In this document: piece by piece, positions 6,963 through 48,276 of the stretch | Layout: the number at the start of each line of letters is the position of its first letter | How positions within the stretch are numbered: the stretch's first letter is position 1 | From: Magnetococcales bacterium | GTDB lineage: Bacteria; Pseudomonadota; Magnetococcia; Magnetococcales; JADFZT01 | DNA length: 64,000 bases | Reading direction: 5' to 3' | NCBI GenBank assembly: GCA_015232395.1 | Contig: JADFZT010000003.1 | Coordinates: 1 to 64,000 of the forward strand | Notes under the pieces: generated by a model | Database searches by the model: none | The model's input: the letters and a program-made list of their open reading frames with translations, nothing else | Told to the model about the DNA's origin: nothing | Program-made: the position numbers and the translations under genes

Positions 6963-7428
6963 GAACACCCCTCCAACTTTCGAATAGATGGGACCAGCTT
7001 GACCCAAACCGATTCATTATGCCACAAGGCATCAAAAAAACCCATCCCCTGTGCACCCTTCCCAACAGCAGGCCGGGAATGGCTGGCAGTAAAACAGGGA
7101 TACCTTACATTGAGAAAATACCGAAGTGTGGGCTGGAATGTAAAAACAACAGGTAGGATCTCTCCCCGGGATCCCCCCCCTTTTTTTGCGACCCTTGCCC
7201 CTGAAAACACCAAAAAAGCACCCTACCGAAGGTAGGCCACGCCTCCATATTACATGAAAGATACCAGCAGGCTGCAGAAAAAACGCCAACCATCCCCAAG
7301 AGCTGCGACCAAGCCCGGGAGTCCACCCAATGTCCACCAGCTCCAGTAAATAAGCCGCCTGGCTTCCCACCCAGTTCACAAGAGTGACAACAGACCACTC
7401 TCCGACAAAATTCAGCAAACCATCCCCT
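6963..7428. other. Region between the group II intron and gspC (3' exon side)
   Basis: No convincing gene on either strand. Overlapping ORFs on the minus strand here have no recognisable domains and low-complexity composition (runs of Trp, Gly and Cys). As the 3' exon of the group II intron, it should continue the intergenic sequence that lay after the dsrP terminator before insertion, and it should contain the gspC promoter. Confidence 0.5.
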
Positions 7429-9311
7429 ATCGGGTAGGAGGCGGGGTCACCCCCGCCGACCTCCCACACCACCGGGCATACGGTTCCGTACCACGACGGT
7501 TCATGTAGCACTTTGAAGTCGTTGCAATTGACCCAGCAGCGACACGAGTCCAAGCGCATTAAAGTATCGCTTCGGAAAAGCAGCATTCATGTGGCTGGCT
7601 CCAGCGTTCCACCACGGACCGCGTTGATTCTTGGCCGACCACCATGCTCGCTTTTCCTTCAGCCCTCGTTTCATCAGGTTTCTGGCCCTCGTGAAAGGAC
7701 GTTTCCATTGTCGCCAAAGAATGCAGCGGAGTTTCCTCCGTAACCACATATCCAGCGCTTCGAAGATGCCCTTCACCTCGGCGAGCTTGAAATAGTTCAC
7801 CCAACCTATGAGGGTCGGTCGAAGATCCGCAACAAATCGGCCAAGGTTGCGCCCCCGACCCTGGCAAAACGCTTCCCGGAGCTTTGCCTTCAGACGTTGC
7901 ACACTCGCCTTCGCCACCTTCAGGCGGGGTTTCATATGCCACGTCAGGCTATAACCCAGAAATTTACGCTTCCAGGGACGAGCAACCGCGCTCTTGTCCT
8001 GATTCACCTTGAGCTTCAACTTTTCCTCAAGATACCGTGTGAGTGATGCAAGAAGGCGTTCCCCAGCCTGCTTCGACGCAACATAAATGTTGCAATCATC
8101 CGCATACCGGCAGAACAGATGCCCCCTACGCTCAAGCTCCTTATCCAGGTCATCCAACAAAATGTTGGACAGCAAGGGGGATAGTGGACCGCCTTGCGGC
8201 GTACCCTGAGTGCGTTGGGATACCACACCCCCTTCCATCATCCCGGCCTCCAGGTATCGACGTATCAGCTTCAATACCTTTTGGTCCCCAATCTTACGGG
8301 CTACCCGCGACATCAAAACATCATGGTTAACCCGATCAAAGAATTTCTCCAGATCCATGTCTACAACCCAGCGCCGACCTGATGCCACATGTGATCGGGC
8401 TTGTCGTACCGCCTGATGAGCGCTACGGTTGGGCCTGAATCCATAGCTTGAGCTGGAAAATCCTTCGTCGAATATGGGTTGCAACACCTGATTCAACGCC
8501 TGCTGTACCAGACGATCCAAAACCGTCGGAATGCCCAACATACGCACCCCTTTCCCGCCGGGCTTCGGTATCTCAACCTTACGCACCGGTTGCGGTTCAT
8601 ACCGACCTGACAGCAGTTCCTCCTTGATGCGTGGCCAATGCTCCTTGAGATAAGCTCCCAGACCCGAAACGGGCATACCATCCACTCCCGCCGACCCCCG
8701 GTTGCTCTTCACACGATGCAAAGCCAACTTCATATTCTCGCGTTCGACCACTGCCTCCATCAACTGACAACTCTTCCGGTTCGGTTCTTCTCTCCTTGCC
8801 GTGACGTTTGACGCACCATCCAAGGGCCATAGCGGATTCCGTCCGTTGCCTCCCTCGGCGGTTCCGGGCATCTCAGACCGGACATCTGCTTCTCCTGTCG
8901 TCATCGAAATTCGAATCCCTTACCACGTACTACACGTTCGGGCCTTCAGTTCGGTCGAAAACCTACTATGCCCTCTGCTGACTTCTGCACGTCCATCCCG
9001 TCATCTCTCGATGGCGGTAGCACAAGGCAGACATGCAGATCTCCCCGGGTAATGCACACGCACCTTCGCGCTTATGTCCGCCGCATATACGTTCATGCCT
9101 TCCGCACAGGTTTCGGACTTTGAAGATATTGGCCTCCTCATCCGGCATGACCGCCTTGTATGCGATTCCTGTTCGTCAGACCAGCGCTTTGCCTTCGGCT
9201 TCCTTCAGATTCCAACTCACGATGGACACCCTTGCCGTTCGGCTAACAGTTCCCCCTGTCGGGCCTGTAGAGGACTTGCACCTCCAAGTACGTGCGCCCT
9301 GCCGGGCGCAC
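7429..9311 (-). mobile_element. Group II intron (bacterial class C type), complete
   Basis: A ribozyme-type retroelement on the minus strand. The 5' end reads GTGCGCCCGGC from 9311, matching the GUGYG intron start. The 3' end reads CCTACCCGAT, ending at 7429 (AY end). A domain V-like hairpin (ACCGTCGT ... CGGTGGT, closed around GTACGG-AA-CCGTAT) lies at about 7468-7500 and domain VI at 7429-7467. The maturase ORF occupies domain IV. The element lies 1-2 nt downstream of an intrinsic terminator stem-loop with its T run, the insertion preference of class IIC introns. Ends are set by motif, not alignment; 1-2 nt uncertainty. Confidence 0.85.
7501..8904 (-). CDS. ltrA: Group II intron reverse transcriptase/maturase
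   Basis: 467-residue intron-encoded protein that helps splice and reverse-transcribes its host intron. Reverse transcriptase blocks are evident: GVDGMPVS, PQPVRKVEIPKPGGKGVRMLGIPT, VDMDLEKFFDRVNHD, QGTPQGGPLSPLLSN and the catalytic CRYADD. A group II maturase (X) domain follows (TLIGWVNYFKLAEVKGIFEALD). There is no HNH endonuclease, as usual for class C. The reading frame is intact, so the intron may be active. ATG at 8904; the stop abuts domain V. Confidence 0.95.
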   Translation of the reverse strand: MTTGEADVRSEMPGTAEGGNGRNPLWPLDGASNVTARREEPNRKSCQLMEAVVERENMKLALHRVKSNRGSAGVDGMPVSGLGAYLKEHWPRIKEELLSGRYEPQPVRKVEIPKPGGKGVRMLGIPTVLDRLVQQALNQVLQPIFDEGFSSSSYGFRPNRSAHQAVRQARSHVASGRRWVVDMDLEKFFDRVNHDVLMSRVARKIGDQKVLKLIRRYLEAGMMEGGVVSQRTQGTPQGGPLSPLLSNILLDDLDKELERRGHLFCRYADDCNIYVASKQAGERLLASLTRYLEEKLKLKVNQDKSAVARPWKRKFLGYSLTWHMKPRLKVAKASVQRLKAKLREAFCQGRGRNLGRFVADLRPTLIGWVNYFKLAEVKGIFEALDMWLRRKLRCILWRQWKRPFTRARNLMKRGLKEKRAWWSAKNQRGPWWNAGASHMNAAFPKRYFNALGLVSLLGQLQRLQSAT

Positions 9312-9312
9312 C

Positions 9313-9346
9313 AAAAAAAAATCGGGCCGCGTCGCCGCAGCCCGAT
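9313..9346 (-). terminator. Intrinsic terminator of the dsr operon, at the intron insertion site
   Basis: On the minus strand ATCGGGC pairs with GCCCGAT (9346-9340 with 9327-9321), with an inner GCG/CGC pair and a GCGA tetraloop, followed by nine T (9321-9313). It lies about 115 nt beyond the dsrP stop. The group II intron begins at 9311, immediately after the T run. Confidence 0.88.
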
Positions 9347-9460
9347 TCATTCGTTCCTTCAATGGTCTACTTTCCAGGCTGGTTAGGTGGATTTCTCTAA
9401 AGAGAAGATCAACACCATTCCACAAAACACACCAGCACCGGAAGGGGCAAGCCCTCCTGC

Positions 9461-10657
9461 TCAAGGATTCCAGGGGACGTCCCAACCCTTGGGAACCACG
9501 GCTTTCTCAGGAAGAAGACGGAGAAAGCGAATGCCCAGAAGGTAGATCAAACCTGCAATCGCTACCCCACCCAGTCCCAACACCAACTCGGGAAGTGTGG
9601 GAGAGTAGGTGGCGGCCATACCGTCTTGAAAGACGCTCGACACCTCGTAGCCGGGAAACATGTTGAAGGGATAGGATTGGCCAGCGATCAGAACATGGGC
9701 CACAAAGGCAAACTCACCGATAACCGCCAGGGCCGAACCCCACATCACCCCTTTGACGGTATTGCCCAGAGTGCTGTTAAAAAGAATTCCCAGAGGCGCC
9801 ACAATACCTGCCAAAATCACCCCTCCCCAATAGAGCCACGCCAAGGGACCGGTGAGAATCCAGGTCTCTACATCGTAAAACGCCGGGGAGTAAAACTTGA
9901 CGAACTTTTCGACGAAGAGAAAATAGAGCACCAGCAGCAGGAAAAAGATGAGGGCGTTGCGCAGCCCAAACACCAGTTTTTTATCCATCTCCAACCCGGC
10001 TGCCTTGTAGGTGGCTACCAGGAGCAGGATGGAAACCGCTGTGCCCGAAGAGAGCGAAACCGCAATGAAGGTGGGGCCGGTGATGGCGGAGTGGAACACC
10101 TCACGGGCGTGGATGACGCCGAAGATGGATCCGGTACCGGTGGTGAGCACCAACCGCCAGAAAAAAGCTGCACTGCCGACGACCTTGGTATATTTCTGGG
10201 CTTCAAACATGGTCCAGAGGTAGAGCAGACAGAGCATCATGAACCCGGTGTAGAGGATCACGTTCCAGGAAAACATGGAGCTGAAGTTGTAGTACATCAT
10301 GGCGAGCAGCATTCGGTCGGGCCGCCCCAGATCAAAAAGCAGCACCGCCAAACCGCCGATCAAAAGAGCTACGGCCAGATAGGCGGAAAAACGACCGAAC
10401 TGCTTGAACTGCTTGGCCGCAAAAATGGTGGACATGGAGCCCAGGTTAAGCGCCCCGGAGGCCATCACCAACATGGCAATGGCAAAGATGTGGGGCAACC
10501 CCCAGACCACCTTGTTGTTCATTCCGGTGACGCCGTGGCCATAAATTTCCACATAGAAAAAGGCCGCAGCCGCCATTCCTACAAAACCGCCCAGGATGAT
10601 GAGCAGTGTGTAAAATGCGGGGAGGCGCCCCTCAACGGTGGTGAATTCGCTGATCAT
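9461..10657 (-). CDS. dsrP: Sulfur-oxidation membrane subunit DsrP (NrfD family)
   Basis: Polytopic quinone-interacting subunit of the DsrMKJOP transmembrane complex, 398 residues with about ten hydrophobic helices (for example LPAFYTLLIILGGFVGMAA and NALIFFLLLVLYFLFVEKF). NrfD/HybB-type family. It follows dsrO by 13 nt and is the last gene before a strong intrinsic terminator. DsrP exchanges electrons between the quinone pool and the periplasmic DsrJO subunits. Confidence 0.92.
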   Translation of the reverse strand: MISEFTTVEGRLPAFYTLLIILGGFVGMAAAAFFYVEIYGHGVTGMNNKVVWGLPHIFAIAMLVMASGALNLGSMSTIFAAKQFKQFGRFSAYLAVALLIGGLAVLLFDLGRPDRMLLAMMYYNFSSMFSWNVILYTGFMMLCLLYLWTMFEAQKYTKVVGSAAFFWRLVLTTGTGSIFGVIHAREVFHSAITGPTFIAVSLSSGTAVSILLLVATYKAAGLEMDKKLVFGLRNALIFFLLLVLYFLFVEKFVKFYSPAFYDVETWILTGPLAWLYWGGVILAGIVAPLGILFNSTLGNTVKGVMWGSALAVIGEFAFVAHVLIAGQSYPFNMFPGYEVSSVFQDGMAATYSPTLPELVLGLGGVAIAGLIYLLGIRFLRLLPEKAVVPKGWDVPWNP

Positions 10658-10670
10658 GCTATACCGCTCC

Positions 10671-11402
10671 CTACAATCCCTGGTAGTGCACGTGGGGTTT
10701 CAAACCGAGATCCTCACGGATGGCCTTGGTGGCAACTTCCCGCACCCGCTTGGAAATCTCTGAAGTGGGATCGTTGAGATCCCCAAAGAGCATCGCCCCT
10801 TCAGATGCCTTGTCACAGGCTTCCACACAAGCCGGGGCTAATCCTGCATCCACTCGATGGACACAGAAGGTACATTTTTCCACCACACCCTTGCCTCGAA
10901 TCGGCACGTCCGGATTACCGTCAGCAGGCAGTTCAGTGGGAAAATAGACCAAAGAGCGGGCCTTGTAAGGGCAGGCAATCATGCAGTAGCGACACCCGAT
11001 ACAACGGTGTTTATCCACCAGCACGATACCATCCTTGCGCACGAAAGAAGCCGCCGTTGGGCAGACGTGTACACAGGGTGGGTTTTCGCAGTGGTTGCAG
11101 AGAACCGGCAGGCTAACAGTGGGACGCCGCCCCTCTTTGTCGCGAATTTCAATCTTGCGGATCCAGTGTATATCCCGATCAGGATCCCCAAAGAGGGGTA
11201 CGTTGTTTTCCTTGCGGCAAGCATCGGTGCAGGCGTTGCAATCGCTTGAACATTTGTTCACGTCGATCAGCATCGCCCAGCGGCTGCTGCCGGAGGCTTC
11301 GGTGGTTTGTGTCGCTGCGATCAGGTGGACACCCGGGGCCAGCGCCACACCCGCGGCAACGGCTCCTCCCAGTCCAAGAACCGATCTTCTGTCCATCGTC
11401 AT
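10671..11402 (-). CDS. dsrO: Periplasmic iron-sulfur protein DsrO
   Basis: Ferredoxin-like electron carrier of the DsrMKJOP complex, 243 residues. The N-terminus has a twin-arginine signal (MDRRSVLGLGGAVAAGVALA) for Tat export of the folded protein. Four cysteine groups follow: CSSDCNACTDAC, CNHCENPPCVHVCP, CIGCRYCMIACP and CTFC...CVEAC, enough for several [4Fe-4S] clusters. Two in-frame ATGs exist; the second (11396) is better placed 8 nt after AGGA. Transcription order dsrJ-dsrO-dsrP is conserved with other sulfur oxidisers. Confidence 0.93.
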   Translation of the reverse strand: MTMDRRSVLGLGGAVAAGVALAPGVHLIAATQTTEASGSSRWAMLIDVNKCSSDCNACTDACRKENNVPLFGDPDRDIHWIRKIEIRDKEGRRPTVSLPVLCNHCENPPCVHVCPTAASFVRKDGIVLVDKHRCIGCRYCMIACPYKARSLVYFPTELPADGNPDVPIRGKGVVEKCTFCVHRVDAGLAPACVEACDKASEGAMLFGDLNDPTSEISKRVREVATKAIREDLGLKPHVHYQGL

Positions 11403-11423
11403 GTTCCTAAACCCCGTTGGTGG

Positions 11424-11771
11424 TCATTTGGGATAGTTGTGGCACTCAAAACAGTCCGGTTTCACACCGACATAGGTGTGACAGCGGTCGCAAAACTGCT
11501 CCCGGCTGGTGTGGCAAGTCCTGCAGTTGAGCAGACTCTCATCGGGAGCGCGATAACCCTCACGCACGGTGCGATCCCGCTTATGTTTCAGATAGTCCAT
11601 GTGATTGCGTCGCATCCAGGCGGTATCTTCGACGCAAGCCTCACCCTTGGCTTTTTGCAGAGTGACGGGAGGGCCTTCCTGGCCATGGGCGGGTTGCGGC
11701 AAAACAGCTGCAAACCCCACCACAATGAAGACGATCAATAGTGCTGCCGGTCGAAACCAAGCCACTGCCAT
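11424..11771 (-). CDS. dsrJ: Triheme cytochrome c DsrJ
   Basis: Small periplasmic triheme cytochrome of the DsrMKJOP complex. Three CXXCH sites are present: CRTCH, CDRCH and CFECH. The upstream Cys in KGEACVED corresponds to the cysteine known in Allochromatium DsrJ to act as an unusual axial haem ligand. A signal peptide (FRPAALLIVFIVVGFAAVLP) precedes it. The start is ambiguous: ATG 11771 sits too close to its GGAGGA, while GTG at 11765 has that same site at ideal spacing. The larger open frame runs back to 11876 but through an inverted repeat and is unlikely to be coding. Confidence 0.9.
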   Translation of the reverse strand: MAVAWFRPAALLIVFIVVGFAAVLPQPAHGQEGPPVTLQKAKGEACVEDTAWMRRNHMDYLKHKRDRTVREGYRAPDESLLNCRTCHTSREQFCDRCHTYVGVKPDCFECHNYPK

Positions 11772-11824
11772 TCCTCCGATTGCGGGAACGATCACGAAAA
11801 CCCCACCGTCATGGCGGGAACAGG

Positions 11825-11862
11825 AGAGATGGCCGACTTGAGCGGACCCAAGTCGGCCATCT
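11825..11862. repeat. Perfect 15-bp inverted repeat between dsrH and dsrJ
   Basis: GAGATGGCCGACTTG (11825-11839) and its exact reverse complement (11848-11862) around an 8-nt loop. It would form a very stable RNA hairpin in the dsrEFHJOP transcript. No T run follows, so it is more likely an mRNA processing/stability or attenuation element than a full terminator. Confidence 0.75.
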
Positions 11863-11885
11863 CTTCGCAACGTCAACCCTTGGGC

Positions 11886-23928: not shown

Positions 23929-25719
23929 TTATCGGTGCCTGGCGGGCTTCAATGTCCAGCTGGTACCGGGATAGCGGGGCTCCTGAACAGCCACCAGCAG
24001 CTCATGAATTCCAGCCACCCCCGCAAGTGGCGCCACCCGCACCATCCCCCCCAGGCCTGACTCGCTCTCTGGGGACCATTCGCTGATTCGCACCAACACC
24101 CGGGCCACAGCCTGTAGATATTCAGCGGCATTGATATTCCCCCCCGGGAGCGTCACCTGGGCAGGAATGATGTTTTGGGGCATGGGAAAGCCAGAACCCG
24201 CTTCCAGTTTGAGGCTTTCCCCTTGAGCCGCCTGCAAAAGATCCGACATCGCCACAAGCCGTGATTGGGAGATGGCCGGCGTGCTGGCAAGAGGCCCATA
24301 GACCGGCTTTAGCAAAACCCCATCGGGCAGCTCCCCCAGTTTGTCATAGGTGGCCAGGGCCTGGACCAACAACGACCAACACTCCGCCAGAGAATAATAG
24401 TATCCCCGGGCCACCACAAAATCGGGCAAAGCCCCGTCTACCGTCTGCAACAGGGCGCGGGCCACTCTCTCCACACGCTCCAGGGGAATTTCCTCCCCCG
24501 ATTCATCGACGAAAAGGTCCACCAAATCCCGAGGGGAGACAAATCGGCTGCCATCCATCCCGGAAAGCATCTCAGCAGCCAAATATTTCAGATTGGCAGC
24601 CGTGGTCTGATAACGCCCCTCCCGCGCCTCCTCGCTCCAAAGATCGGCCTCTGTCAGTTCCGGGGCTTCGGGGTGATCGTAGGCATAGTCGGTGGGGCTC
24701 TCCTTGGCGTAGAGATATTTGCTGGCCAGATGGGCGTTGATCACCTGGAGCCGGGCCGGATCAAGGAGCGCCAACTCCCCGGCCAGGGTTTCACTGCTTT
24801 CGATCAGGTTTAACGCCCCCACCCCATCCAGGGGGTTGCCGTCGTTGATACGCAGGTGGCCGTTCATCCAAAAGAGCCCGGCAGGGGTGCGGTGCTCCGG
24901 GGTCAGACGAGAGATCAGGCGCTTGAGAGCCGCCCCATAGTCTGGATTGGAGAGGGGGCCGTGGTCGGGAAAGCCGAACATGACAAAATCCCCCAGCAAC
25001 CGATCCAGGGTAAAAACCAGGGCCTGGTCGAGAGCCAGACCACTCACCACCTGGATCTCTCCCCACACCTCTTCGACCTTTTTGACCCCTCCCGTACGAC
25101 TGGGATCCACCCCTCCCAAGAGAGGATCCTTGCCCAGGGTCAGATAGGCCAGCGCCCCTTGCACCGTGCGCTCCCAATCGGCCTGATCTCCCTCCAGGGA
25201 AGTCAGGGCATTGTTGGTATAGGTGGGTTCGTGAGCGCCGTGGTAACCAAAATGGAGAACACCCCCCTGGGAAGCATCCTCCCCCTGCAAAACCTTGAGC
25301 AAGCCGGTTTCAGGGTGACGCTCTGCCAGGGTTTCAGCGTCCGCCCCCATAAATGCCAGGGTCCAGGATGGCGTAAGATCGGGATAATCACGGCTCAAGT
25401 CTGTGACTGTGGGCAGGAGCCTTTGAAAACGCTCTTCGCTCAGAGTGTGATTGATGTGATCTTCGGTGTGGGTAAAAAGAAACAGATAGAGCGGAGGGAG
25501 TTGGCACTGGTTGATCAGACAGGCTTGATCCACCGGGCACTGGGAATCTGCACGACATGCCAACCCCTCCTCCCCCTGGGCTTCCTGAAAGGGCCAAACC
25601 AAGCTCCCCACCATCAGCCAAGAGAGCAGCAGAAACCCATACCAAGGAAGAGATAGAAACCTCCCCCTCCCGGAATCTCTCAGCCTACCTGAAAACTTCA
25701 GAAAAGGGAGAGCCACCAT
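23929..25719 (-). CDS. Exported protein of unknown function
   Basis: About 596 residues. A signal peptide (LPWYGFLLLSWLMVGSLVWP) precedes a Cys-rich segment (CRADSQCPVDQACLINQC, like a small disulfide knot) and then a region starting LYLFLFTHTEDHIN with DYPDLTPSWTLAFMGADAETL and HFGYHGAHEPTY. The His/Asp spacing recalls polysaccharide-deacetylase-like folds, but I cannot assign the family. ATG at 25719 with AGGAGG 5 nt upstream is clearly better than the upstream in-frame start. No obvious operon partner; the next minus-strand gene upstream is about 400 nt away. Confidence 0.75.
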   Translation of the reverse strand: MVALPFLKFSGRLRDSGRGRFLSLPWYGFLLLSWLMVGSLVWPFQEAQGEEGLACRADSQCPVDQACLINQCQLPPLYLFLFTHTEDHINHTLSEERFQRLLPTVTDLSRDYPDLTPSWTLAFMGADAETLAERHPETGLLKVLQGEDASQGGVLHFGYHGAHEPTYTNNALTSLEGDQADWERTVQGALAYLTLGKDPLLGGVDPSRTGGVKKVEEVWGEIQVVSGLALDQALVFTLDRLLGDFVMFGFPDHGPLSNPDYGAALKRLISRLTPEHRTPAGLFWMNGHLRINDGNPLDGVGALNLIESSETLAGELALLDPARLQVINAHLASKYLYAKESPTDYAYDHPEAPELTEADLWSEEAREGRYQTTAANLKYLAAEMLSGMDGSRFVSPRDLVDLFVDESGEEIPLERVERVARALLQTVDGALPDFVVARGYYYSLAECWSLLVQALATYDKLGELPDGVLLKPVYGPLASTPAISQSRLVAMSDLLQAAQGESLKLEAGSGFPMPQNIIPAQVTLPGGNINAAEYLQAVARVLVRISEWSPESESGLGGMVRVAPLAGVAGIHELLVAVQEPRYPGTSWTLKPARHR

Positions 25720-26113
25720 CACCCCTCCTGAACAGCCCCCACCGCCCACAGTTTCTTTTGGCGATGGCGGGTGTGGTCGGGGTTGGAATCATCTGTGGGA
25801 CAGTCCAGAAAAACCAGCAAAATCGGAAGATGGGAAAAACTTCTAACGCTGAACGCTCTTTTGGCTGGGATCGAAGGAGACATGGGGATCCATTGGGATC
25901 AAGGGGAATATCACGATTGAAGATCCATCATAACATGACCAAACCGGGGAGGTGGAAAAATAGCCGAGAGACACAACATCCATCCGGGAGGAAACCTGCC
26001 CCACCCTGAGGCAGGGGAAAAATCCTACTGGAGAAACATCTCTTCAGCAGGTACGCGCTACCGGGAAAGCGCCTACGAAGTGACTGCAAAACAGATCGTT
26101 TTCCGGGAATTGA
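25720..26113. other. Intergenic region without recognised features
   Basis: No gene, repeat or clear terminator recognised on either strand. It should hold the promoter of the exported protein and the end of the upstream operon. Confidence 0.5.
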
Positions 26114-27124
26114 CTACAACAGTGTCAACATCCAGGGGACATAATAGATCTGCAGGGAGACTGAAACAGCGAGGGCCACAAAAGCCACCAGGGCCAGAGG
26201 CATCACCCCCAAAAAGACCTTCAAAAGCCGTCTCTCCTTCAGCCGATAGCGCACCAATCCCTTGGAGAGAAAAATCGCCACCAGGCAGGTGAGGACGTAG
26301 GCAGCACACATGAAGAAAAGATGGGGAAAAAAGGTGGCAAAAGCCCCGGCATAGCTGAATACCGTCAGGGACTCCCCCGCCGCCAAATCACCATGGATCA
26401 AACGAATCAGGGAGATCGCCCAAAAACTGACATTGAGAACGATCACCAACATCGCACCGAAGGTTTTATAGAGAAAAGCCAACAGCAGGGCGGCCAAAAA
26501 ACCCACCACATGACCGAGTAAAATCAGACTGGATTCAAACCGCCACTCCAAAAAGGCACTTCCCAAAGGCCCAACGGCAAAGATTTCCCCCAGCTCCGAT
26601 TCCAAGGTGCCGGTTTCAATCACCGACCCCATCAACAGCCACCCCACGAAAACCCCGATGGCGATGGACATGATGGCGGTAAAGGTGCGCCAATTGGCCA
26701 CCAGGGGAGATTTTTTTTCCACCCAGATGTGGTGACGGTTGAGGTCGAGAATTTGGTTCATGCGGGGGGTCATGGCCCCGGTTATCAAAAACAGCGCCAA
26801 GGTTCCGGCTTTAGGGGCGATAAACATAAACCCCACATAGAGGCTCGCTATGGTCAAAATCAGGGCTTCGACATAGAGGATAAAATCCCACTGATAGCGG
26901 TCGCCGGAGAGTCCCAACTTGTCGGTGATAAAGTTACCCACCTCCCCCTTGGGGATAAAACGGTCCCCTTCATATTCGGGAAACAACTCCTCATCAGAAA
27001 CCTTCACCGGGCGGGAAGCCTCGGAGTGGCTCTCTTCCCGGCGGGAGACCTTGGGAGGAGATGCCTCGGCAGGCGATTCCACCGGGGGGGATTGGGGCTC
27101 CTCGGGGGGGGCATCGGGGTTCAT
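26114..27124 (-). CDS. Polytopic membrane protein of unknown function
   Basis: 336 residues: a charged Pro/Glu/Ser-rich cytoplasmic N-terminus (1-75), then six or more membrane helices (for example FILYVEALILTIASLYVGFM, LILLGHVVGFLAALLLAFLY, VFLGVMPLALVAFVALAVSV). No family recognised; the helix pattern loosely recalls SpoIIM-like proteins but without conserved motifs. Third gene of a three-gene minus-strand operon, 54 nt after the preceding gene. ATG with AGGAG about 10 nt upstream. Confidence 0.75.
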   Translation of the reverse strand: MNPDAPPEEPQSPPVESPAEASPPKVSRREESHSEASRPVKVSDEELFPEYEGDRFIPKGEVGNFITDKLGLSGDRYQWDFILYVEALILTIASLYVGFMFIAPKAGTLALFLITGAMTPRMNQILDLNRHHIWVEKKSPLVANWRTFTAIMSIAIGVFVGWLLMGSVIETGTLESELGEIFAVGPLGSAFLEWRFESSLILLGHVVGFLAALLLAFLYKTFGAMLVIVLNVSFWAISLIRLIHGDLAAGESLTVFSYAGAFATFFPHLFFMCAAYVLTCLVAIFLSKGLVRYRLKERRLLKVFLGVMPLALVAFVALAVSVSLQIYYVPWMLTLL

Positions 27125-27178
27125 ATCAATAAGGCTCCTGATGTCAAAAGGGGCTTCGGGAAAAATATGTACCGGGGG

Positions 27179-29026
27179 TTAGCGTTCCGGTGGCAACAGT
27201 TCCCGAATCATGATTTCCGGCCCCCCATAGGTGATTTGACCGAGTTTGAACTTATAGTGTTTATCGTTAAAAGGGATCGAAACGGTCTCTCCCATCCGCA
27301 ACAGGGGATGATAGCCCGGCAGACGGGGATAGAGACAAAACATCCGCTTGCCCTTTCTGAAGTGAATGATTTTCAGGGGATCCCCCGCTTCATCTTCCTC
27401 AAAAAGCCGATGGATGAGCGAAGGCTGAGAGTCGGCGCTCAAAAGACGCACCGAAAAATCGACCAAATTTTCCTCTTCCCGAACGATCCGGGAAACGTAG
27501 CCCACGCTGAAAGTGTAGTCAGGGGGACGGGCAAAGGCGACCATGGTGCCGATACGAAAAGGTCGGGTGGCGTAGCCCTCGATCAGGTGCAGCTGAATCT
27601 CTCCCCGCCCCGTCACCTCGGGATCGATCTGCCACTGGTTGATCTCCTCCAGATCCCGCTTATCCTCCACATTGGTCAGCACCGATGAGGAACGGGCCAG
27701 GGTGAGATGAAAGGAGGACTCTTCACGAAATTTTTCCGCCCCCTTTTCCCTCCGGTTGCGAATCATGGCGTAGGCGTTCATAAAGCCAAAAAAGAGGTGA
27801 AGATCGGGATCCTTGCGGAAATGGGGCCGTTTGATGCCAACGCTTCCCAGAGAAAAATCCCGTTTCAGCCCCTGCAACAGGTGGGGCCGCTCCATGGGAT
27901 GCAGTCTGAAGAGGGGCTCCCCTTCCGTGACACCATTTCCCCCACCCGACACCTCCCCCAAACCCCCTTTGAGATACCCCTCCAGAACGTTGCGGATTGC
28001 CTCCAGGCTGAAAAGATAATCCCGTTTTTTGCCAGGCTCACCCTGACCCAAAACAGGTGGAATTTCCTGTCCAAAAGCGATGAGAGCCTCCCCTTTGCCA
28101 GGCGCTTGTCCGTCACAGGGATCAATCCGGACCTGATTTTTATGGCTCTCCAAAAAGGCCGTCAAGAAATGCAGATCACTGGGAGACCAGCGCTGTGAAT
28201 CGAGCATGGACCACAGCTGGATCTTGATATAGAGAGACTCGAAGCTGTCAGTACCCAAATGAGGCACGCTGAAACCGGCAAGACCGGTCTCCAGGCCGAG
28301 CCCGGATGAGGAGAGGTGATGGTAACGCTCCTCCACCGATTCATAGCTCCTGAGCATAAAATAGAGCTTGTTGGCCATCCCCAGATAGACCGGAGGCAGG
28401 TTGCGATAGAGCAGGCCGTTGAGGTGTTGCAGCAACCAAATCAGCTCCAGAATGTGAAAGGCGGTTTCAGGCACCTGGTCGCGTATTTTGGCATAGCGAT
28501 AGTTGGGACGGCGATAATAGAGATCGAACAGATTGCCATAGCCCTTCAGGAGAGCCTCCGCAGCCTGGATGGCCCCGTTGAGCATGGCGGAATAGGCATC
28601 GCTGGCGGGAATGGTGACCTTTTTGCGATAACGAAAATAGATGTTTTCCATCACCGGGAAGGCGTAGAGCAGGGCCATTTTAAGGCGATTGGACCGCTCC
28701 TCCAGGGTGAGATTGGAGGCTTTGAGCATCTTGGTCAGATAAGCCGCGATATCCCCCAAAAGAGTCGCCATCTCCCCGGCTTCAAACTGGCGATTCCAAC
28801 GCTGGCTGAGTTCCTCGGCCCCGGGCAGCTGCATTTTATAGCGCCCCGGCACCCAAACGAGGGTAATTTTTTGATCTCGCTTGGGGAGTCCAATGCCGAA
28901 AATGTGGCGCTTTTTAATGGGTGCCAACACCCCCCCATCCCCCTTGGGGCTATCGACCGGATCGGTGGGGATCGGTTTTGCAGGAGGTTCGGTTCCGGTT
29001 GGAAAATCAGGAGGCGAGGCGGACAT
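27179..29026 (-). CDS. Large cytoplasmic protein of unknown function, possible PilZ-like C-terminus
   Basis: 615 residues with no membrane segment. The N-terminal half (60-260) is helical (EERSNRLKMALLYAFPVMENIYFRYRKK). The C-terminal 180 residues are beta-rich and basic (FRIGTMVAFARPPDYTFSVGYVSRIVREEENLVDFSVRLL), which could be a PilZ-like or similar beta-barrel ligand-binding module, but the RxxxR and DxSxxG signatures are not clear. Its start overlaps the end of the upstream repeat-protein gene by 20 nt, so translation is probably coupled. The function probably depends on the two neighbouring proteins. Confidence 0.7.
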   Translation of the reverse strand: MSASPPDFPTGTEPPAKPIPTDPVDSPKGDGGVLAPIKKRHIFGIGLPKRDQKITLVWVPGRYKMQLPGAEELSQRWNRQFEAGEMATLLGDIAAYLTKMLKASNLTLEERSNRLKMALLYAFPVMENIYFRYRKKVTIPASDAYSAMLNGAIQAAEALLKGYGNLFDLYYRRPNYRYAKIRDQVPETAFHILELIWLLQHLNGLLYRNLPPVYLGMANKLYFMLRSYESVEERYHHLSSSGLGLETGLAGFSVPHLGTDSFESLYIKIQLWSMLDSQRWSPSDLHFLTAFLESHKNQVRIDPCDGQAPGKGEALIAFGQEIPPVLGQGEPGKKRDYLFSLEAIRNVLEGYLKGGLGEVSGGGNGVTEGEPLFRLHPMERPHLLQGLKRDFSLGSVGIKRPHFRKDPDLHLFFGFMNAYAMIRNRREKGAEKFREESSFHLTLARSSSVLTNVEDKRDLEEINQWQIDPEVTGRGEIQLHLIEGYATRPFRIGTMVAFARPPDYTFSVGYVSRIVREEENLVDFSVRLLSADSQPSLIHRLFEEDEAGDPLKIIHFRKGKRMFCLYPRLPGYHPLLRMGETVSIPFNDKHYKFKLGQITYGGPEIMIRELLPPER

Positions 29027-31010
29027 CTTCCACGTTCTCCCTTTCTATTTCGAATTGTAGGAAGCCACCAAAAATCTTTTTTTCCAGATAGAGCATTTCC
29101 GGATCGGTATTTCTCAGGATCCCTTTTTTGGTGAAACCCTGTTTGAGTTTGACCCGAACCCGCCGGTCGACATAAAGCACCAGAGGATCGGCCAGCGGCT
29201 CAATAGTGGTGATGGCAGAGAGGGGAATCTCCATGGGGGGCAGATAATCATCCGGGGTACGGATGGCCCGGACAGACTCGCCGTCAATGGATTTGAGATA
29301 GAGCTGCTGGAAGGTCTCTGTATCCAGATGGATACGCACGGCAGAATCGATCAGGGGCGTCCATTTTTGTTGGCGGGCTGCGGCCTCCTGGGCAGAAAGC
29401 GCTCGGGTTTGGTAGACGACTCCCCCCGTACTGCCACTCCTGCTGACACCACGCTCCCCCCCTGAAGCACTTTCAGCTACCAGGGCACTCCCGGCAGCCC
29501 CGGCACTCAAAGTAGCGGAAGCGCCAGCAGAGGTTGAGGAAAATACGGAAGCCCCTGCACCGGCAGAACCACCCCCATCGCCAGTGGCAACGCCCGGCGT
29601 CTTGACCCCCATCTCATCCACACGGGCCAACGCTTCATCGGTGGACATTCCGTCACGGGGAGCGGGTATGCCAGAATCACTCCCCGAAGCACCGACACCC
29701 GACACCGAAGCGGCAGCATCTCCAGCAGCTGAAGCCCCAGAACTGGAACCGCCAGCCCCTCCCTCACCAGGCACCTTCACCCCCATCTCATCGATGCGGG
29801 CCAACGCCTCTTCTGTGGAAATCCCATCCCGGGGAGCGGGTATCTCAGGGGCACCATCCGTGGCAGTCGAAGCGCCTCCAGCCGAAGCCATCCCTGGGGA
29901 AGCGTCGGCAGGCCCGGTCGACCCTGAACCAGCACCGCCACCCCCCTCCGGCACCTTCACCCCCAGATCCTCAATGCGCGCCAACGCTTCCTCAGAGGTG
30001 AGGCCATCCCGGGGAGCAGGAATCTCCATATCCACCCCACCCCCGACAGTCGAGCCCCCTGGCATCTGCCCGGAGTCAGCCCCCGGACTCGAAGCTGCTC
30101 CGGAAGCGGCGTTGCCGACCCCGGAGCTTTGGCTTTCACCATCAGCCGTGGCCTCAACCGCCACCGGCCCCCCTTCACCCATGGCCACTTCGCCGGTCAC
30201 CAGGCTCAATATTTTTTGTGGACGAATGGCTTCATATTTAAACAGCACCACCCCCACCAGGCAGACCGCCAGCAGAAGGGTAAGCAGGTAGGTTTTGCTT
30301 TTCTGTTTTTTTCCGGAAAAGGATTTCAGCAGGGCGGCTTCCGGGGAGGGCAGCGCCAGTGGCTCTCCACTCCAGTTGCCCTTGGCTTTGGGGGCGCTCC
30401 CGGCACCTTTGCCATCATTCCCGGCAGCACCCAATTCCGCAACAAACCGCTGGGCTTTGGTGAGGGCCGACTCGATGGTTGGATCTTTGGGCTTTAAGCG
30501 GCTGGCCTCTTCCAGTTGAGTGAGTGCTGTGGTGAGCAGAGGCAGATGGGCCTGCTCCAGTTTGCCCCCATCTTTGCCATCCCCCAGGAGAGAGCGCACG
30601 GAGTTGATGGCTTTTTCCGCCAGGGTTTCGCCCAACAATCGGCGCAGAGCCGGAGAGACCGGTGAACCGGAAAAAGCCACCGCCTTGCGCAGCAGCTCAA
30701 GCTTGGTATTTAAATTGCCCTGATCACCAAATTTATTGGCAGCCTGAAGGATTTCCCGACAGACCGGGGAGAGGTCATAGAGCTGGCTGGCATCCACCAA
30801 AAGCTCCCGGGCCTCCTTGGCGGCTGCGGCCATCTGTTTCCGGCTCTCCGGGGTTCCCTCCCCCTTTTGACTCTGCCGGACGGTTTGGTCCAACCCCAAC
30901 AGCAAGCCCATGGAGAGATGCCCCGGCTCCTGGAGCAGGGCCTGTCTGGCCAGTGCCACGGGGTTACTTCCGCTCTCGGGGGAAGGCGATAAATCTGTGG
31001 GATTTGCCAT
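29007..31010 (-). CDS. Single-span membrane protein with three near-identical repeats
   Basis: 667 residues. The N-terminal helical part (1-225) includes TPR-like pieces (LTTALTQLEEASRLKPKDPTIESALTKAQ). One membrane helix follows (YLLTLLLAVCLVGVVLF, about 238-255). The outer region carries three copies of IPAPRDG(L/I/M)(S/T)(S/T)(E/D)EALAR(I/V) ending GVK(V/T)P, at about 327-352, 387-413 and 447-472, separated by Gly/Ala/Ser linkers. A conserved-looking C-terminal domain (RIHLDTETFQQLYLKSIDGESV ...) ends the protein. No family recognised. First gene of a three-gene operon whose products are all unassigned; the topology suggests a cell-envelope or trans-membrane sensing role. Confidence 0.75.
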   Translation of the reverse strand: MANPTDLSPSPESGSNPVALARQALLQEPGHLSMGLLLGLDQTVRQSQKGEGTPESRKQMAAAAKEARELLVDASQLYDLSPVCREILQAANKFGDQGNLNTKLELLRKAVAFSGSPVSPALRRLLGETLAEKAINSVRSLLGDGKDGGKLEQAHLPLLTTALTQLEEASRLKPKDPTIESALTKAQRFVAELGAAGNDGKGAGSAPKAKGNWSGEPLALPSPEAALLKSFSGKKQKSKTYLLTLLLAVCLVGVVLFKYEAIRPQKILSLVTGEVAMGEGGPVAVEATADGESQSSGVGNAASGAASSPGADSGQMPGGSTVGGGVDMEIPAPRDGLTSEEALARIEDLGVKVPEGGGGAGSGSTGPADASPGMASAGGASTATDGAPEIPAPRDGISTEEALARIDEMGVKVPGEGGAGGSSSGASAAGDAAASVSGVGASGSDSGIPAPRDGMSTDEALARVDEMGVKTPGVATGDGGGSAGAGASVFSSTSAGASATLSAGAAGSALVAESASGGERGVSRSGSTGGVVYQTRALSAQEAAARQQKWTPLIDSAVRIHLDTETFQQLYLKSIDGESVRAIRTPDDYLPPMEIPLSAITTIEPLADPLVLYVDRRVRVKLKQGFTKKGILRNTDPEMLYLEKKIFGGFLQFEIERENVEDVRLAS

Positions 31011-33963: not shown

Positions 33964-35856
33964 TTACATACCCATACCCATCTGGATATAGGAGCAGGGG
34001 CAGACTTCCTGACAGATGTGACAACCGATACAGCGGGTGTAATCGGTAAACATCACACGACCCTGGGGCCGCTTCAGGTTGCGATGGATCGCTTCCTGAG
34101 GACAGTAGATCCGACACTGGTCACAGACAAAACAGAGACCACAGGAGAGGCACCGCTTGGCTTCAGCGATTCCCTCGGAAATGCTGAGGGTTTGGTTGAT
34201 CTCCCGGAAATCCTTGGTCGCTTCTTCCACCGGGATCTGCTTCTCTTCGTTACGAGGAGCAGCCGGATAGATGCCCAAGCGCATTTCCGTATGACGCACC
34301 GGACGGCCCTTGTGGGGAAGTTGATATCTTTTCCCTTTAAGGTAACCATCAATAGCCCGGGCAGCGATACGGCCCTGACCCACGGAGCGGGTGGAGATAC
34401 CCAGTCCCAACACATCACCACCGGCAAAGATGCCGTTTTCCTTGGTCTGCATGGTGGAACTGGCACCAATGAAGCCCCACTTGTTGGCAAGGTCTTCCAT
34501 CCCCTGCTCCAGCTCCGGCACCTGACCGATACCAACAATCACGGTATCCACCGGCAGGGTGAATTCGGAACCTTCGATGGGTACCGGGCGGCGACGACCG
34601 GACTTGTCCGGCTCACCCAGCTCCATGCGGATGCACTTGATGGCGGTGGCCCGGCCCCCTTCGGTCTCGAAACCGATGGGTGCAGAGAGAAACTCAAACT
34701 TGATACCCTCGTGAACCGCCTCATCCACATCCTTGGAGATGGCGGGCATCTCTTCCCGGGTACGGCGATAGAGGATGGTGACCTGGGAATATTTGGAAAC
34801 CCGTTTGGCCACCCGGGCGGAGTCCATGGCGGGCTTTTCAGCAGCGATGGTGGCTCCAGAGCGTTCGACTTCCTCATCAATCGCCTTGCTGGCCGCTTCC
34901 ATGGCCGCAGTATCACCACTCTTTTCAGCCTTTTCCCAGGCTTCTTCGTTATCCGAGTGAAGGCGAAGAGAAACGCGGGCGGCGTCAACGGCGGAGTCAC
35001 CACCACCGATCACCACCACCCGAGCGCCGATTTCCACTTGTGCACCGGTATTGACCCGGTTGAGAAATCCAGCACCCGTAAAAACGTTGGCGGAATTTTC
35101 ACCTTCAACGTTCAGGTTGGTACCCTTGTGTGCACCGATGCCCAGATAGACGGCATCGTACTGGTCTTTGAGATCCTGGTAGGAGATATCTCGACCCACG
35201 CGGGTGTTGTATTTGATCTCAACGCCCAGATCCAAGATGTTCTGGATTTCAGCATCAAGGACTTTTTCGGGCAGACGGTAGGAGGGGATGCCGTAACGCA
35301 GCATACCGCCACCCTTTTCGAAGGCTTCGAAAATGGTGACGTCATAGCCCCTGCGAACCAGCTGATAAGCGCAGGAGAGACCCGTGGGACCGGAACCGAT
35401 GACGGCAATCTTCTTGCCCTTCTTCTCATCGGTCAGCATCTTGAGTTTCAACCCACGGTCAATCCCGTGATCGCCGATCAACCGTTCCATGTTGTTAATG
35501 GCAACGGCCCCATCTTCCATGTGCTGTCTGTTACATCCTGATTCGCAAGGGTGTGGGCAGACCCGACCATGGATGGCCGGCATGGGATTTTTATCGGTCA
35601 GGGTGTACCACGCCTTGTCCAAGGCATCCTCGATGGGAGTCTTGAACATGTCCGCCTGAGCGATGGACGTCAGATAGCCACGAATATCCTCACTGGAAGG
35701 ACATTCGTTACGACAAGGGGGCATACGTTGGACGTATGTGGGGCATTTATAGCTTCGGGCGTTGCGGACGATGATCTCCTCCGCATCCGGCAACTTCAGC
35801 CCGGCCTCCACGTCTTCCCGAGACTGCCTCTTGAGGATAGTTGTTTCTTTACTCAT
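33964..35856 (-). CDS. dsrL: Iron-sulfur flavoprotein DsrL
   Basis: 630-residue NAD(P)H:acceptor oxidoreductase that works with DsrAB in sulfur oxidation; homologous to the small subunit of glutamate synthase with extra iron-sulfur domains. N-terminal cysteine motif (CPTYVQRMPPCRNECP), CPHPCESGC, FAD-binding VIGSGPTGLSCAY, NAD(P)-binding VVIGGGDSAVDAARV, then CLSCGLCFVCDQCRIYCP and a ferredoxin motif CIGCHICQEVCP. Last gene of dsrA-dsrB-dsrL (37 nt after dsrB). In Allochromatium dsrL lies between dsrK and dsrJ, so its position beside dsrAB is a rearrangement. Its presence supports the oxidative direction. Confidence 0.93.
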   Translation of the reverse strand: MSKETTILKRQSREDVEAGLKLPDAEEIIVRNARSYKCPTYVQRMPPCRNECPSSEDIRGYLTSIAQADMFKTPIEDALDKAWYTLTDKNPMPAIHGRVCPHPCESGCNRQHMEDGAVAINNMERLIGDHGIDRGLKLKMLTDEKKGKKIAVIGSGPTGLSCAYQLVRRGYDVTIFEAFEKGGGMLRYGIPSYRLPEKVLDAEIQNILDLGVEIKYNTRVGRDISYQDLKDQYDAVYLGIGAHKGTNLNVEGENSANVFTGAGFLNRVNTGAQVEIGARVVVIGGGDSAVDAARVSLRLHSDNEEAWEKAEKSGDTAAMEAASKAIDEEVERSGATIAAEKPAMDSARVAKRVSKYSQVTILYRRTREEMPAISKDVDEAVHEGIKFEFLSAPIGFETEGGRATAIKCIRMELGEPDKSGRRRPVPIEGSEFTLPVDTVIVGIGQVPELEQGMEDLANKWGFIGASSTMQTKENGIFAGGDVLGLGISTRSVGQGRIAARAIDGYLKGKRYQLPHKGRPVRHTEMRLGIYPAAPRNEEKQIPVEEATKDFREINQTLSISEGIAEAKRCLSCGLCFVCDQCRIYCPQEAIHRNLKRPQGRVMFTDYTRCIGCHICQEVCPCSYIQMGMGM

Positions 35857-35893
35857 TGCTGCAAATTCCTCCGGTATTTAAGGCGCTTGGGCA

Positions 35894-36967
35894 TCAGAGG
35901 CGGACGTGGCTTGACCGGTTCAGGGTCTGAAGGGCTTCTGGGCCATCGTCAATGTGGTAGCGGGTGAAGGGGAAGCCGGTCTTTTCGAAGAAACGCTGCC
36001 AGCCAATCCGATCGATCCACTCGCCGATCCGCTCCCAAGGCTTACCACCTTCTCTGTAGGCCTCGATGATCTTCTTCACCGCCTCACCCACTTCGGGCCA
36101 ACGGGGAGGATTGTTGGGCAGACCCCAAACAGCCAGCTTTTGCAGGGCAGGGCCGCCGCGGGTGTTGGCCATTTTACCACCCACCCAGATGGAGAGCGTG
36201 TCGGTATCGGAGTCGCGGATTTCCATGCTGGGGCACTGGCCGTGGCAGGCGCCGCAATACATGCATTTTTCCTCAACCACCTCAACGGTCTGGTTGCCGT
36301 CCACAACTGTCGGACGAATCGCCGCAGCCGGACAGATGGCGACCACCTTGGGCAACTCACAGATCTGCATGTTGTTGTGGTCGATGCGCGGGGGATGATG
36401 GTGCTGCACGATGATGGAGATATCCCCTTGGCTGGCGCAGTTGATCTGGCAGCAGGAGGTGGAAATTTTCACCCGGTTGGGGAGATTTTCGTTCTTGAAG
36501 TCGTCGATCAACTCATCCAACAGCGCCTTCACCGCACCAGCGGCGTCGGAGCCAGGCAGGTTGCAGTGGAGCCAACCCTGGGTGCAGACCACGTTGGAGA
36601 CCGAAGGACCGGTACCACCGATGGGAAAGCCCAGCTCCTTTTCGACGGCATTGATCAGGTCATCCAGCTGGCTTTCGTCGTCACACAAAAACTCGACGTT
36701 GCTGCGGGTGGTGAAACGGATGAAGCCCTTGGAATATTTATCAGCGATGTCACACATATGGCGGACAGTGGCTGCACTCAATGTCCGGGGGGAACCACCA
36801 CGTACGGTATAGAGCTTGTCGCCGCTCTCGGCTACATGCACCAGAACGCCGGGACGAACCCGCTCATGATAGTCCCATTTGCCATAGTTCGCGGTCATGG
36901 CAGGATGGAGCATTTTGGTATAGTCGGGAGCACCTTGATCCCGAGGTGCCATTTGCGTATTGCTCAT
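35894..36967 (-). CDS. dsrB: Dissimilatory sulfite reductase beta subunit DsrB
   Basis: 357 residues. Sirohaem/[4Fe-4S] binding region with CTQGWLHCNLPGSD and STSCCQINCASQGD, an inserted ferredoxin domain (CPAAAI and EEKCMYCGACHGQCPSM), and the conserved core GGKMANTRGGPALQKLA. Partner of DsrA in the alpha2-beta2 enzyme that, in this genomic context, oxidises protein-bound sulfur to sulfite. 59 nt downstream of dsrA. Confidence 0.96.
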   Translation of the reverse strand: MSNTQMAPRDQGAPDYTKMLHPAMTANYGKWDYHERVRPGVLVHVAESGDKLYTVRGGSPRTLSAATVRHMCDIADKYSKGFIRFTTRSNVEFLCDDESQLDDLINAVEKELGFPIGGTGPSVSNVVCTQGWLHCNLPGSDAAGAVKALLDELIDDFKNENLPNRVKISTSCCQINCASQGDISIIVQHHHPPRIDHNNMQICELPKVVAICPAAAIRPTVVDGNQTVEVVEEKCMYCGACHGQCPSMEIRDSDTDTLSIWVGGKMANTRGGPALQKLAVWGLPNNPPRWPEVGEAVKKIIEAYREGGKPWERIGEWIDRIGWQRFFEKTGFPFTRYHIDDGPEALQTLNRSSHVRL

Positions 36968-37026
36968 GTTTTCTCAGTCCTCTTAATGTTCATGAATACT
37001 GGCTAACCGATTCGGTACCCCTGGAA

Positions 37027-38310
37027 TCAGGAGGCCGCCTCGGTGGATTCCACTTCACGGTTCCAGACGGGAGGATCCTGATTCTGCTCTCCATCGAAAC
37101 GGCCGGGAGCCAGCTCCTCGAACTTGATGTAGGTGCTGGTACGGGGGGCGCGGACCATCTGTACGTCGGGCTCAATGCCAACACCCTTGAGGAAGGTGGC
37201 CATACCAACGCGCTTGATGAACTCACCAATCCGCTCGTGATCCATACCGTTGTCGTTCCAGAATTCCCAAATCCGATCAATGAAGTCGGTGAGGGCCACC
37301 AAGTCTTCGTCGGTTTCCAACTTCATGAAGGGCACCAGCACCGAACCCAGGGTGTCACCCACGATCAGGGTACGCTTGCCGCCCAACAGCACGGTTACGC
37401 CACGATCCTTACCGGGTTTCAGGGCCTTGTGCATGACGTTGATGCAGTGCATGCAGCGGACGCACTCGTCGTTGTCAACCAAAAGCTCTTTTTTGTCGGT
37501 GTCGACGGAGAGGCAGTTGGTGGGGCAGCGGGTGAGGACGTTGTCGATGAGATATTTGATACCCTTGTCATCGATAAACTCAGCCACTTTCTCCTGATTG
37601 ACCTGCATCGGCCCGCGCCAGGTACCCATGAGGGGCATGTCGGAGCGCTGCATGGAGTTGGCGCAGTCGTTGGCGCAACCGGAGAGTTTGAATTTGAACT
37701 TGTAGACGAACTCGGGACGATGGAGATACTCAATGAAGGTGTCGGTGATGTGCTTGGTGGCTTTCAGGGTGTCGTAGCAAGCCATCTCACAGCGGGCCGG
37801 ACCCACACAGCACTGCAGGGTACGCATGGCGGCACCGGAGCCACCCATATCCCAACCGTCGTTCATCAGCGCTTCGGAGGCTTTGAAGGTGTTTTCGTTG
37901 TCAAAGCCCAAGAGCAGAATGTCGCCACTCATGCCGTGGAGCTGAAGGATGCCTGCACCAAATTCTTCACTGTGGTCAGCCAGGTTGCGCAGGGCAGCGG
38001 TGGAATAGTGCCAGCCGGAAGGCTCAATGATGCGGATGGTGTGGAACTGGGCGATGTCAGGATATTTATCCGCCTTTTCGGAGAGACGCGCAATCACGCC
38101 GCCGCCGTAGCCAGGCACGTTCAGGATGGTGCCCTGCCAATAGTTCCAACGGTTTTGATAAGACTCTTCCAGCTGATTGAGAAGCTGACCCACTTGGGGA
38201 CGCGTCTCAGACCAATTTTTCAGATCGGTCACGAAGCTCGGCCAGGGACCGGACTCCAATTCGTTCAACATCGGGGTGTTCAAAGGCTGTTTCTGGGCAT
38301 TCTGGGTCAT
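37027..38310 (-). CDS. dsrA: Dissimilatory sulfite reductase alpha subunit DsrA
   Basis: About 427 residues: LNELESGPWPSFVTDLKNW at the N-terminus, sirohaem-cluster cysteines in CCVGPARCEMACYD and FKLSGCANDCANSMQRSD, a ferredoxin domain (CPTNCLS and CVRCMHCINVM), and LLGGKRTLIVGDTLGSVLVPFMKL. ATG at 38310 has GAGGAG 7 nt upstream; the longer frame to 38355 lacks family similarity. First gene of dsrABL, about 550 nt from the divergent ankyrin gene, with an A/T-rich upstream region (38440-38510) that probably holds the promoter. Confidence 0.96.
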   Translation of the reverse strand: MTQNAQKQPLNTPMLNELESGPWPSFVTDLKNWSETRPQVGQLLNQLEESYQNRWNYWQGTILNVPGYGGGVIARLSEKADKYPDIAQFHTIRIIEPSGWHYSTAALRNLADHSEEFGAGILQLHGMSGDILLLGFDNENTFKASEALMNDGWDMGGSGAAMRTLQCCVGPARCEMACYDTLKATKHITDTFIEYLHRPEFVYKFKFKLSGCANDCANSMQRSDMPLMGTWRGPMQVNQEKVAEFIDDKGIKYLIDNVLTRCPTNCLSVDTDKKELLVDNDECVRCMHCINVMHKALKPGKDRGVTVLLGGKRTLIVGDTLGSVLVPFMKLETDEDLVALTDFIDRIWEFWNDNGMDHERIGEFIKRVGMATFLKGVGIEPDVQMVRAPRTSTYIKFEELAPGRFDGEQNQDPPVWNREVESTEAAS

Positions 38311-38725
38311 GTGACACTCCTCTAGATCGTCTCTTGGCGGACTGGGGACCGCCAACTTCTCCCTCTATCCGGAACGCTTCTCTCTCGGATTACGAAACAA
38401 AATTCAGACAAATTCAGGGGATCTTACCTGGGGATTGGCCCTCAGACAATATGAAAATAACGATATTCTAATTTAATTTTGCAAATATAAGAATAAAATA
38501 AATTAATCATGAGAAGAGATCCTGTATCCAGCAACCACCCGACACCTCTTCAGAATCGTGACTCACCCCTTCCCCAGCCCCCTCCCTTCCCCTGACCAAA
38601 CCGGAAAAATCAGCCCCACCCTGGTCCATTTTGCCCCCTCACCCCCTCTTCCCCCTCTGCTCAGGCAATAGATATAATCTTGCAATACATTGAAATATAT
38701 CATTAAATTCAAACACAAAAGAGCC
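38311..38725. other. Divergent regulatory region between dsrA and the ankyrin gene
   Basis: No gene. 38440-38515 is very A/T-rich with TATTCT ... AGAATA arms (about 38464-38495) and an ATTCTAAT motif that also occurs just downstream of the dsrE promoter. The right part leads into a sigma-54 promoter. Confidence 0.5.
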
Positions 38726-47613: not shown

Positions 47614-48276
47614 TCAGGAGGTGGATTTCACAGCTGGATAGATCGAAAGTTCCCGACGGTGACGCCCAGCCAGCCAGAGGAGGGTTTTTTCAAAATGTTG
47701 GAAGGAGCGGGAGTTGGATCGCAACCGCTCCCAATCCAATCCGGCCAATAATCGAGTCTGATCCCGGGTTGGTTTGTAGCGCTTACTGGACCCCATCAAA
47801 CCACTCAACTGCTCCTTGGCTCCCCGGATCTCCTCCATATCCTTTTCGACATCAAACGATTCCAATTGCCAACGATAATCCGGGAATTGCTCGGCAAGAG
47901 TCGGCAGGGAAAAAAGAAACAGGGTTTCAAACTCCCGGTGGAAAAAAACGATCCCGACCGGTTTTTCTTCTGGCCGGTGCATCCGCTGGATACGCTGAGA
48001 AAACGCCCGGACCACCTCCAAAGGGCAGGCGTCGTCACAATCCACCACCAGCAACACCGAATCTCCATCCCGCCTGGTACAGGCATAGTGAACAAATTTT
48101 TCCAGCTCCCCTTCCCGCTCCAGCTTGGGGATATCCCCTACCTTGATGGGATTTCTGGCCGGATGGATCCCTTTGATACCAAGCTGGTTCAAGGTGAGAG
48201 GAATGAGCTTACCCACCGCCTCCTTATCCCCCTCCCCCTCCACCAGGAGCACCGGCTTGTGGAAGGGCCTGCTCAT
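47614..48276 (-). CDS. TOPRIM-like DUF4276-type protein, partner of an AAA ATPase
   Basis: 220 residues. Glu13 in LLVEGEGDKEAV and the DxD pair Asp79/Asp81 in LLVVDCDDACP are the metal-binding pattern of TOPRIM nucleases. The C-terminal helical part carries KRYKPTRDQTRLLAGLDWERLRS, typical of DUF4276. It overlaps the end of the upstream ATPase gene by 4 nt. AAA plus TOPRIM gene pairs related to OLD, PARIS and Gabija act in phage defence through nucleic-acid cleavage; assignment here is by architecture only. Confidence 0.8.
   Translation of the reverse strand: MSRPFHKPVLLVEGEGDKEAVGKLIPLTLNQLGIKGIHPARNPIKVGDIPKLEREGELEKFVHYACTRRDGDSVLLVVDCDDACPLEVVRAFSQRIQRMHRPEEKPVGIVFFHREFETLFLFSLPTLAEQFPDYRWQLESFDVEKDMEEIRGAKEQLSGLMGSSKRYKPTRDQTRLLAGLDWERLRSNSRSFQHFEKTLLWLAGRHRRELSIYPAVKSTS

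Follow-up and report, generated by a model that had tools for sequence, protein, structure and literature searches.

A rare, conserved gene pair in Magnetococcales encoding a remote PilZ-like family protein and its putative membrane-anchored partner

Within a 64,000-nt stretch of Magnetococcales DNA (hereafter the window), two genes, designated A and B, constitute a genuine conserved module, albeit a rare one, since their homologues also lie side by side, in unchanged order, in a distant genome with otherwise different surroundings. As A and B are neighbours in this second, distant genome, the module is likely to be membrane-anchored through A. Profile comparisons place B as a remote member of a widespread proteobacterial family that combines a helical N-terminus with a PilZ-like double barrel. 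A third gene, C, is optional or foreign to the module, given that it was found in the home genome only and is missing beside the second A-B pair.

The features of the locus are collected in Table 1. The sequence-only reading had described three genes, three repeats on Gly/Ser linkers in a single-span A, a soluble B with a beta-rich end and a polytopic C, and these descriptions were confirmed: the open reading frames are as proposed, hydropathy yielded 1, 0 and about 6-7 spans for A, B and C, respectively, the repeats start at residues 330, 390 and 448 of A within a Gly/Ala/Ser-rich stretch, and the AlphaFold model of B has two C-terminal barrels, the C-terminus of A being beta-rich as well. 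The same reading took all three genes to be coupled, which held for A and B, whose reading frames share 20 bp, with a purine-rich AAAGGGAGAACGTGGAAGATG preceding gene B, but not for C, which follows after a gap of 54 bp and has an AGGAG-like ribosome site of its own before its start; strict coupling is therefore restricted to A-B. The recQ gene is located upstream of the three genes at a distance of approximately 335 bases. Some 365 bases downstream of C lies a 606-residue orphan (window 23929-25749, minus strand), probably a secreted protein, with a signal-like N-terminus, a short Cys-rich segment and no significant Pfam or PADLOC match. Promoter and terminator scans of the locus returned scores equal to background and were uninformative.

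Table 1. Positions in the window of the three genes and of the features recognised in their products.
Feature	Position	Strand	Basis or description
Gene A	29007..31010	minus	ORF; 667 aa bitopic membrane protein
A transmembrane span, residues 239-257	30240..30296	minus	Hydropathy; sole span in A
A repeat 1, IPAPRDGLTSEEALARIEDLGVK	29955..30023	minus	Starts at residue 330
A repeat 2, IPAPRDGISTEEALARIDEMGVK	29775..29843	minus	Starts at residue 390
A repeat 3, IPAPRDGMSTDEALARVDEMGVK	29601..29669	minus	Starts at residue 448
A first Sm/SH3-like barrel, residues about 552-604	29199..29357	minus	Internal duplication; LSm6 weak
A second Sm/SH3-like barrel, residues about 612-665	29016..29177	minus	Weak LSM, DUF150_C and LSm7 matches
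Gene B	27179..29026	minus	ORF; 615 aa soluble PilZ-like family protein
B mainly helical domain, residues about 70-446	27689..28819	minus	AlphaFold, pLDDT mostly 80-93 in first half; family match
B PilZ-like beta barrel, residues about 476-541	27404..27601	minus	Profile and AlphaFold model; without c-di-GMP motifs
B second C-terminal beta barrel, residues about 551-611	27194..27376	minus	AlphaFold model
Gene C	26114..27124	minus	ORF; 336 aa polytopic membrane protein, orphan

Elsewhere in the window, the contig edge carries a fragment of a MamE-like protease with a magnetochrome domain (27-1523, minus strand), which scored 333 bits against the NCBIfam MamE model, below its cut-off of 800, and which is adjoined by the type II secretion genes gspE, gspD and gspC (2069-7007, minus strand). 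A group II intron reverse transcriptase/maturase gene (7501-8904, minus strand) is situated between gspC and an NrfD/DsrP-like gene. Dissimilatory sulfite reductase-type genes are found in two blocks (9461-11876 and 33964-38355, minus strand), comprising NrfD/DsrP-like, DsrO-like ferredoxin and DsrJ-like cytochrome genes, and genes for two NIR_SIR subunits and an FAD oxidoreductase. A portal gene of Mu phage type (16957-18201, minus strand; E 4e-108) is flanked by a ferrochelatase gene and one for a large hybrid histidine kinase, and an AAA ATPase gene paired with a DUF4276 gene (47614-49427, minus strand), the ATPase resembling the MAD3 and PtuA effector ATPases, represents a candidate defence pair.

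The order-wide scan covered 48 genomes, namely the home genome and 47 others. B and the C-terminus of A were each significant in two of these, the same two in both cases, and the genes were adjacent in both; if A and B were distributed independently, the chance of such coincidence would be about 9e-4, a figure that ignores phylogeny. The second pair is encoded by a Magnetococcales MAG of a different family (contig JADGBX010000084.1, with the A homologue at 8347-10170 of locus L005), where A (607 aa) and B (595 aa) occur in the gene order seen in the window and are 26-30% identical to their counterparts. Here the pair is flanked by a DUF748 gene upstream and by a 103-residue gene and a glycosyltransferase-like gene downstream, and the surroundings of the two pairs otherwise differ. 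Matches to the A barrels in other genomes were weak (E 0.02 and worse) and none was significant. A scan of the genome collection with B alone found nothing, whilst a two-sequence B alignment retrieved the second Magnetococcales MAG only; searches for A in viral contigs and for C in plasmids also found nothing. The expectation that homologues of the three genes would co-occur was thus upheld for A and B but not for C, which is confined to the home genome. A further suggested check was whether the operon tracks with magnetotactic genomes; despite the MamE-like fragment in the window, A-B is present in just two of the 48 genomes of this magnetotactic order, and the pair does not track magnetotaxis or the order as a whole.

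No match of B above cut-off was obtained in Pfam, NCBIfam, PHROGs or PADLOC, a PDB sequence search with B or its family found nothing, and hydropathy showed no transmembrane span. After the initial query that led to the family, all steps used proteins read from genomes. When the two B proteins were aligned with the family profile by hhalign, an E-value of 5.9e-10 was obtained over 409 columns (residues 91-586), compared with 0.17 or worse for shuffled and reversed controls against the full family profile, and 0.05 or worse for controls across the full-length and separate-part profile tests. The N-terminal and C-terminal parts of B also matched the family separately (E 9.3e-10 and 9.7e-7, respectively). 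The family is present in other Proteobacteria and in 48 of 74 genomes of another family, designated f18; in a phylum sample, it occurred in 28 of 399 genomes. Relative to these proteins, B is co-linear over residues 91-586 and shares the helical N-terminus and C-terminal double barrel, but it is only about 10-17% identical to them, is paired with A and is not beside FimX.

The PilZ label of B is reached via the family, since the direct match of the B pair to PilZ gave E 0.21 and no Foldseek match of the B model passes 0.001. The C-terminus of the family, with B left out, matched PilZ at E 1.4e-6, and PilZ was the sole Pfam family to match more than one of 34 family members (7/34, best 2.2e-4), the match being below the curated cut-off in the case inspected. 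With 34 family sequences, the AlphaFold model of B improved from a pLDDT of 37.8 (two sequences) to 73.7, with a pTM of 0.67. Amongst PDB structures, the nearest meaningful folds were MrkH and PlzA, two-barrel PilZ proteins whose tandem barrels resemble those of B, though the match is not significant (E about 0.04) and B differs in its large helical domain in front and its lack of c-di-GMP motifs. Matches of the first model to 14-3-3-like folds were discarded, as the two-sequence model was too poor.

The motif RxxxR followed by [D/N]xSxxG is absent from both B and its homologue, which makes classical c-di-GMP binding by B unlikely. A relaxed form, [D/N]x[S/D]xxG, occurs in 26 of the 34 family members, RxxxR preceding it in just 7 of those 26, whereas both motifs were found in 18 of 27 ordinary PilZ domains used for comparison; B thus differs from most of its own family in lacking the [D/N]xSxxG motif. 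In the home genome, which is rich in c-di-GMP signalling, PilZ was matched 15 times.

The N-terminal part of A is helical-looking and weakly TPR-like. The part beyond the single span is predicted to be periplasmic, because basic residues are commoner on the N-terminal side of the span, with four Lys/Arg against three in the window copy, where the bias is weak, and four against one in the homologue; all comparisons of A are based on these two sequences. The three repeats share the consensus IPAPRDG[L/I/M]-S/T-rich-EALAR[I/V]-x-x-[L/M]GVK, of which the window has no further copy on either strand. Of their 23 residues, 3-8 differ between copies, as do 10-14 of the 23 third codon positions; the repeats hence look older than any fresh duplication and appear constrained at the protein level. 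The surrounding linker is rich in Gly, Ala and Ser (59, 53 and 40, respectively, per 287 residues). The homologue has a single copy of the motif, IPPARDGISMQEAVQR, and its linker is likewise of low complexity (Ser/Gly/Gln/Ala/Pro).

Searches with A against Pfam, NCBIfam, PHROGs and PADLOC gave no match above cut-off, those in NCBIfam being confined to the repeats and the low-complexity linker. It was found that the last 120 residues comprise two barrels of about 55 residues each, the halves matching one another at E 3.9e-6 (score 31.8, compared with at most 14 in 40 shuffles). Weak similarities to Sm and RimP-SH3 barrels were recovered at this C-terminus: A matched Pfam LSM at E 0.031 (14.4 bits, cut-off 23.4), its second barrel matched LSm7 at 0.013, and the homologue matched DUF150_C in two stretches at E 3.2e-5 (24.5 bits, cut-off 26.3). 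In having two short barrels with weak LSM and DUF150_C matches, the A C-terminus resembles Sm/LSm proteins and the C-terminal SH3-like barrel of RimP, but the barrels of A are in tandem, on a membrane protein, predicted to be periplasmic and without RNA context. The earlier view that none of the three proteins fits a known system consequently no longer applies to B, which is a remote member of the helical and PilZ-like family, or to A, which appears to end in two Sm/SH3-like barrels.

We regard the chances as roughly even that A and B make up an adaptor module anchored in the inner membrane, in which B is a PilZ-like non-binder, A its transmembrane partner and C an accessory of the lineage. 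B, as a cytoplasmic divergent PilZ-like protein, would act by protein-protein contact, as does the non-binding PilZ of type IV pilus systems, a mode that is probable because the c-di-GMP binding motifs are absent. The helical cytoplasmic domain of A would dock B; past its span, A would continue as a flexible arm, probably periplasmic, bearing three short binding motifs, and the two Sm/SH3-like barrels may hold an envelope partner. C would be an accessory membrane protein gained in this lineage. More tentatively, and at well below even chances, A-B may be a module for transmembrane signalling: a PilZ-like protein that has lost c-di-GMP binding would be linked to an envelope structure through a dedicated bitopic partner, the triple motif providing multivalent periplasmic docking sites.

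The neighbourhoods of the B family bear on a possible link to pili. Of 20 contexts sampled outside f18, 10 had the family gene directly beside a PAS-GGDEF-EAL gene, which we take to be of FimX type; a phosphatidylserine decarboxylase gene lay on the opposite side in the one case that was tested. This family gene presumably corresponds to PA4958 in Pseudomonas aeruginosa, in the order psd - PA4958 - fimX. PA4958 has been listed among swarming-related Anr-regulated genes. No FimX-type gene was beside the family gene at any of 20 sampled f18 loci, where it has other neighbours, and none adjoins either Magnetococcales A-B pair. In one f18 genome (L076, G268:C163, 908-4145), inspected by eye, the family gene follows a small gene resembling a Rab-like GTPase and a 343-residue gene. 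As FimX adjacency is absent from both A-B pairs, from the f18 loci and from half of the other contexts, no function can be transferred to A-B, and since the f18 gene has other neighbours, a pilus role for the B family is best treated as a hypothesis.

An unlikely reading is that B controls the motor of a type IV pilus or of a type II secretion system, in the way that PilZ and FimX control PilB, A being the membrane anchor that keeps B at the machine. This reading would fit the 10 FimX-type adjacencies, the 13 and 9 PilB/GspE-type ATPase matches in the two A-B genomes and the presence of gspC, gspD and gspE in the window, but such ATPases are found everywhere (matched in 14 of 14 control genomes), no pilus or secretion gene adjoins A-B in either genome, and the f18 family gene is not beside FimX. 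As with the PilZ that acts with FimX and PilB, B is of the PilZ superfamily, is unlikely to bind c-di-GMP and has relatives that adjoin FimX-type genes; the type IV pilus PilZ, however, is a small single-domain protein, unlike B. Similarly, FimV-type proteins are bitopic pilus assembly proteins, and A likewise appears to join a helical, TPR-like cytoplasmic part to a periplasmic arm, but in the opposite orientation and without LysM, and A had no sequence match to FimV-type proteins in Pfam or NCBIfam.

It is doubtful that A, B and C form a three-part envelope complex, in which A-B would regulate C and C would be a channel, transporter or scaffold. The three genes are on one strand with no intervening gene, C being only 54 bp away with its own ribosome site, but C does not accompany the second A-B pair, where the contig spans its expected position (genome 80% complete), and no homologue was detected in the 47 other genomes of the order, so the three-gene system originally envisaged was not sustained. 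C had no family match in Pfam, NCBIfam, PHROGs or PADLOC, and none of the three proteins matched a PADLOC anti-phage model (0 families). SpoIIM, the only family suspected for C, by eye, was rejected because its hhalign score (E 0.36) was no better than that of shuffled C (0.018-0.63). Least probable is a nearly neutral, lineage-specific, horizontally spread pair without an important role. Presence in 2 of 48 genomes from different families would suit this reading, but neither protein is disrupted, and every domain and the motif have been retained at an identity of only 26-30%, which requires that A-B has long been under selection; its GC content is also near that of neighbouring genes.

The B family has no NCBIfam match and no Pfam match above cut-off, and B is now placed within this widespread family. 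Under the adaptor reading, which we prefer, a dedicated membrane partner of a B-type protein would be a handle on what the B family docks to, and the three motif copies on A suggest that there is a receptor for them, probably in the periplasm.
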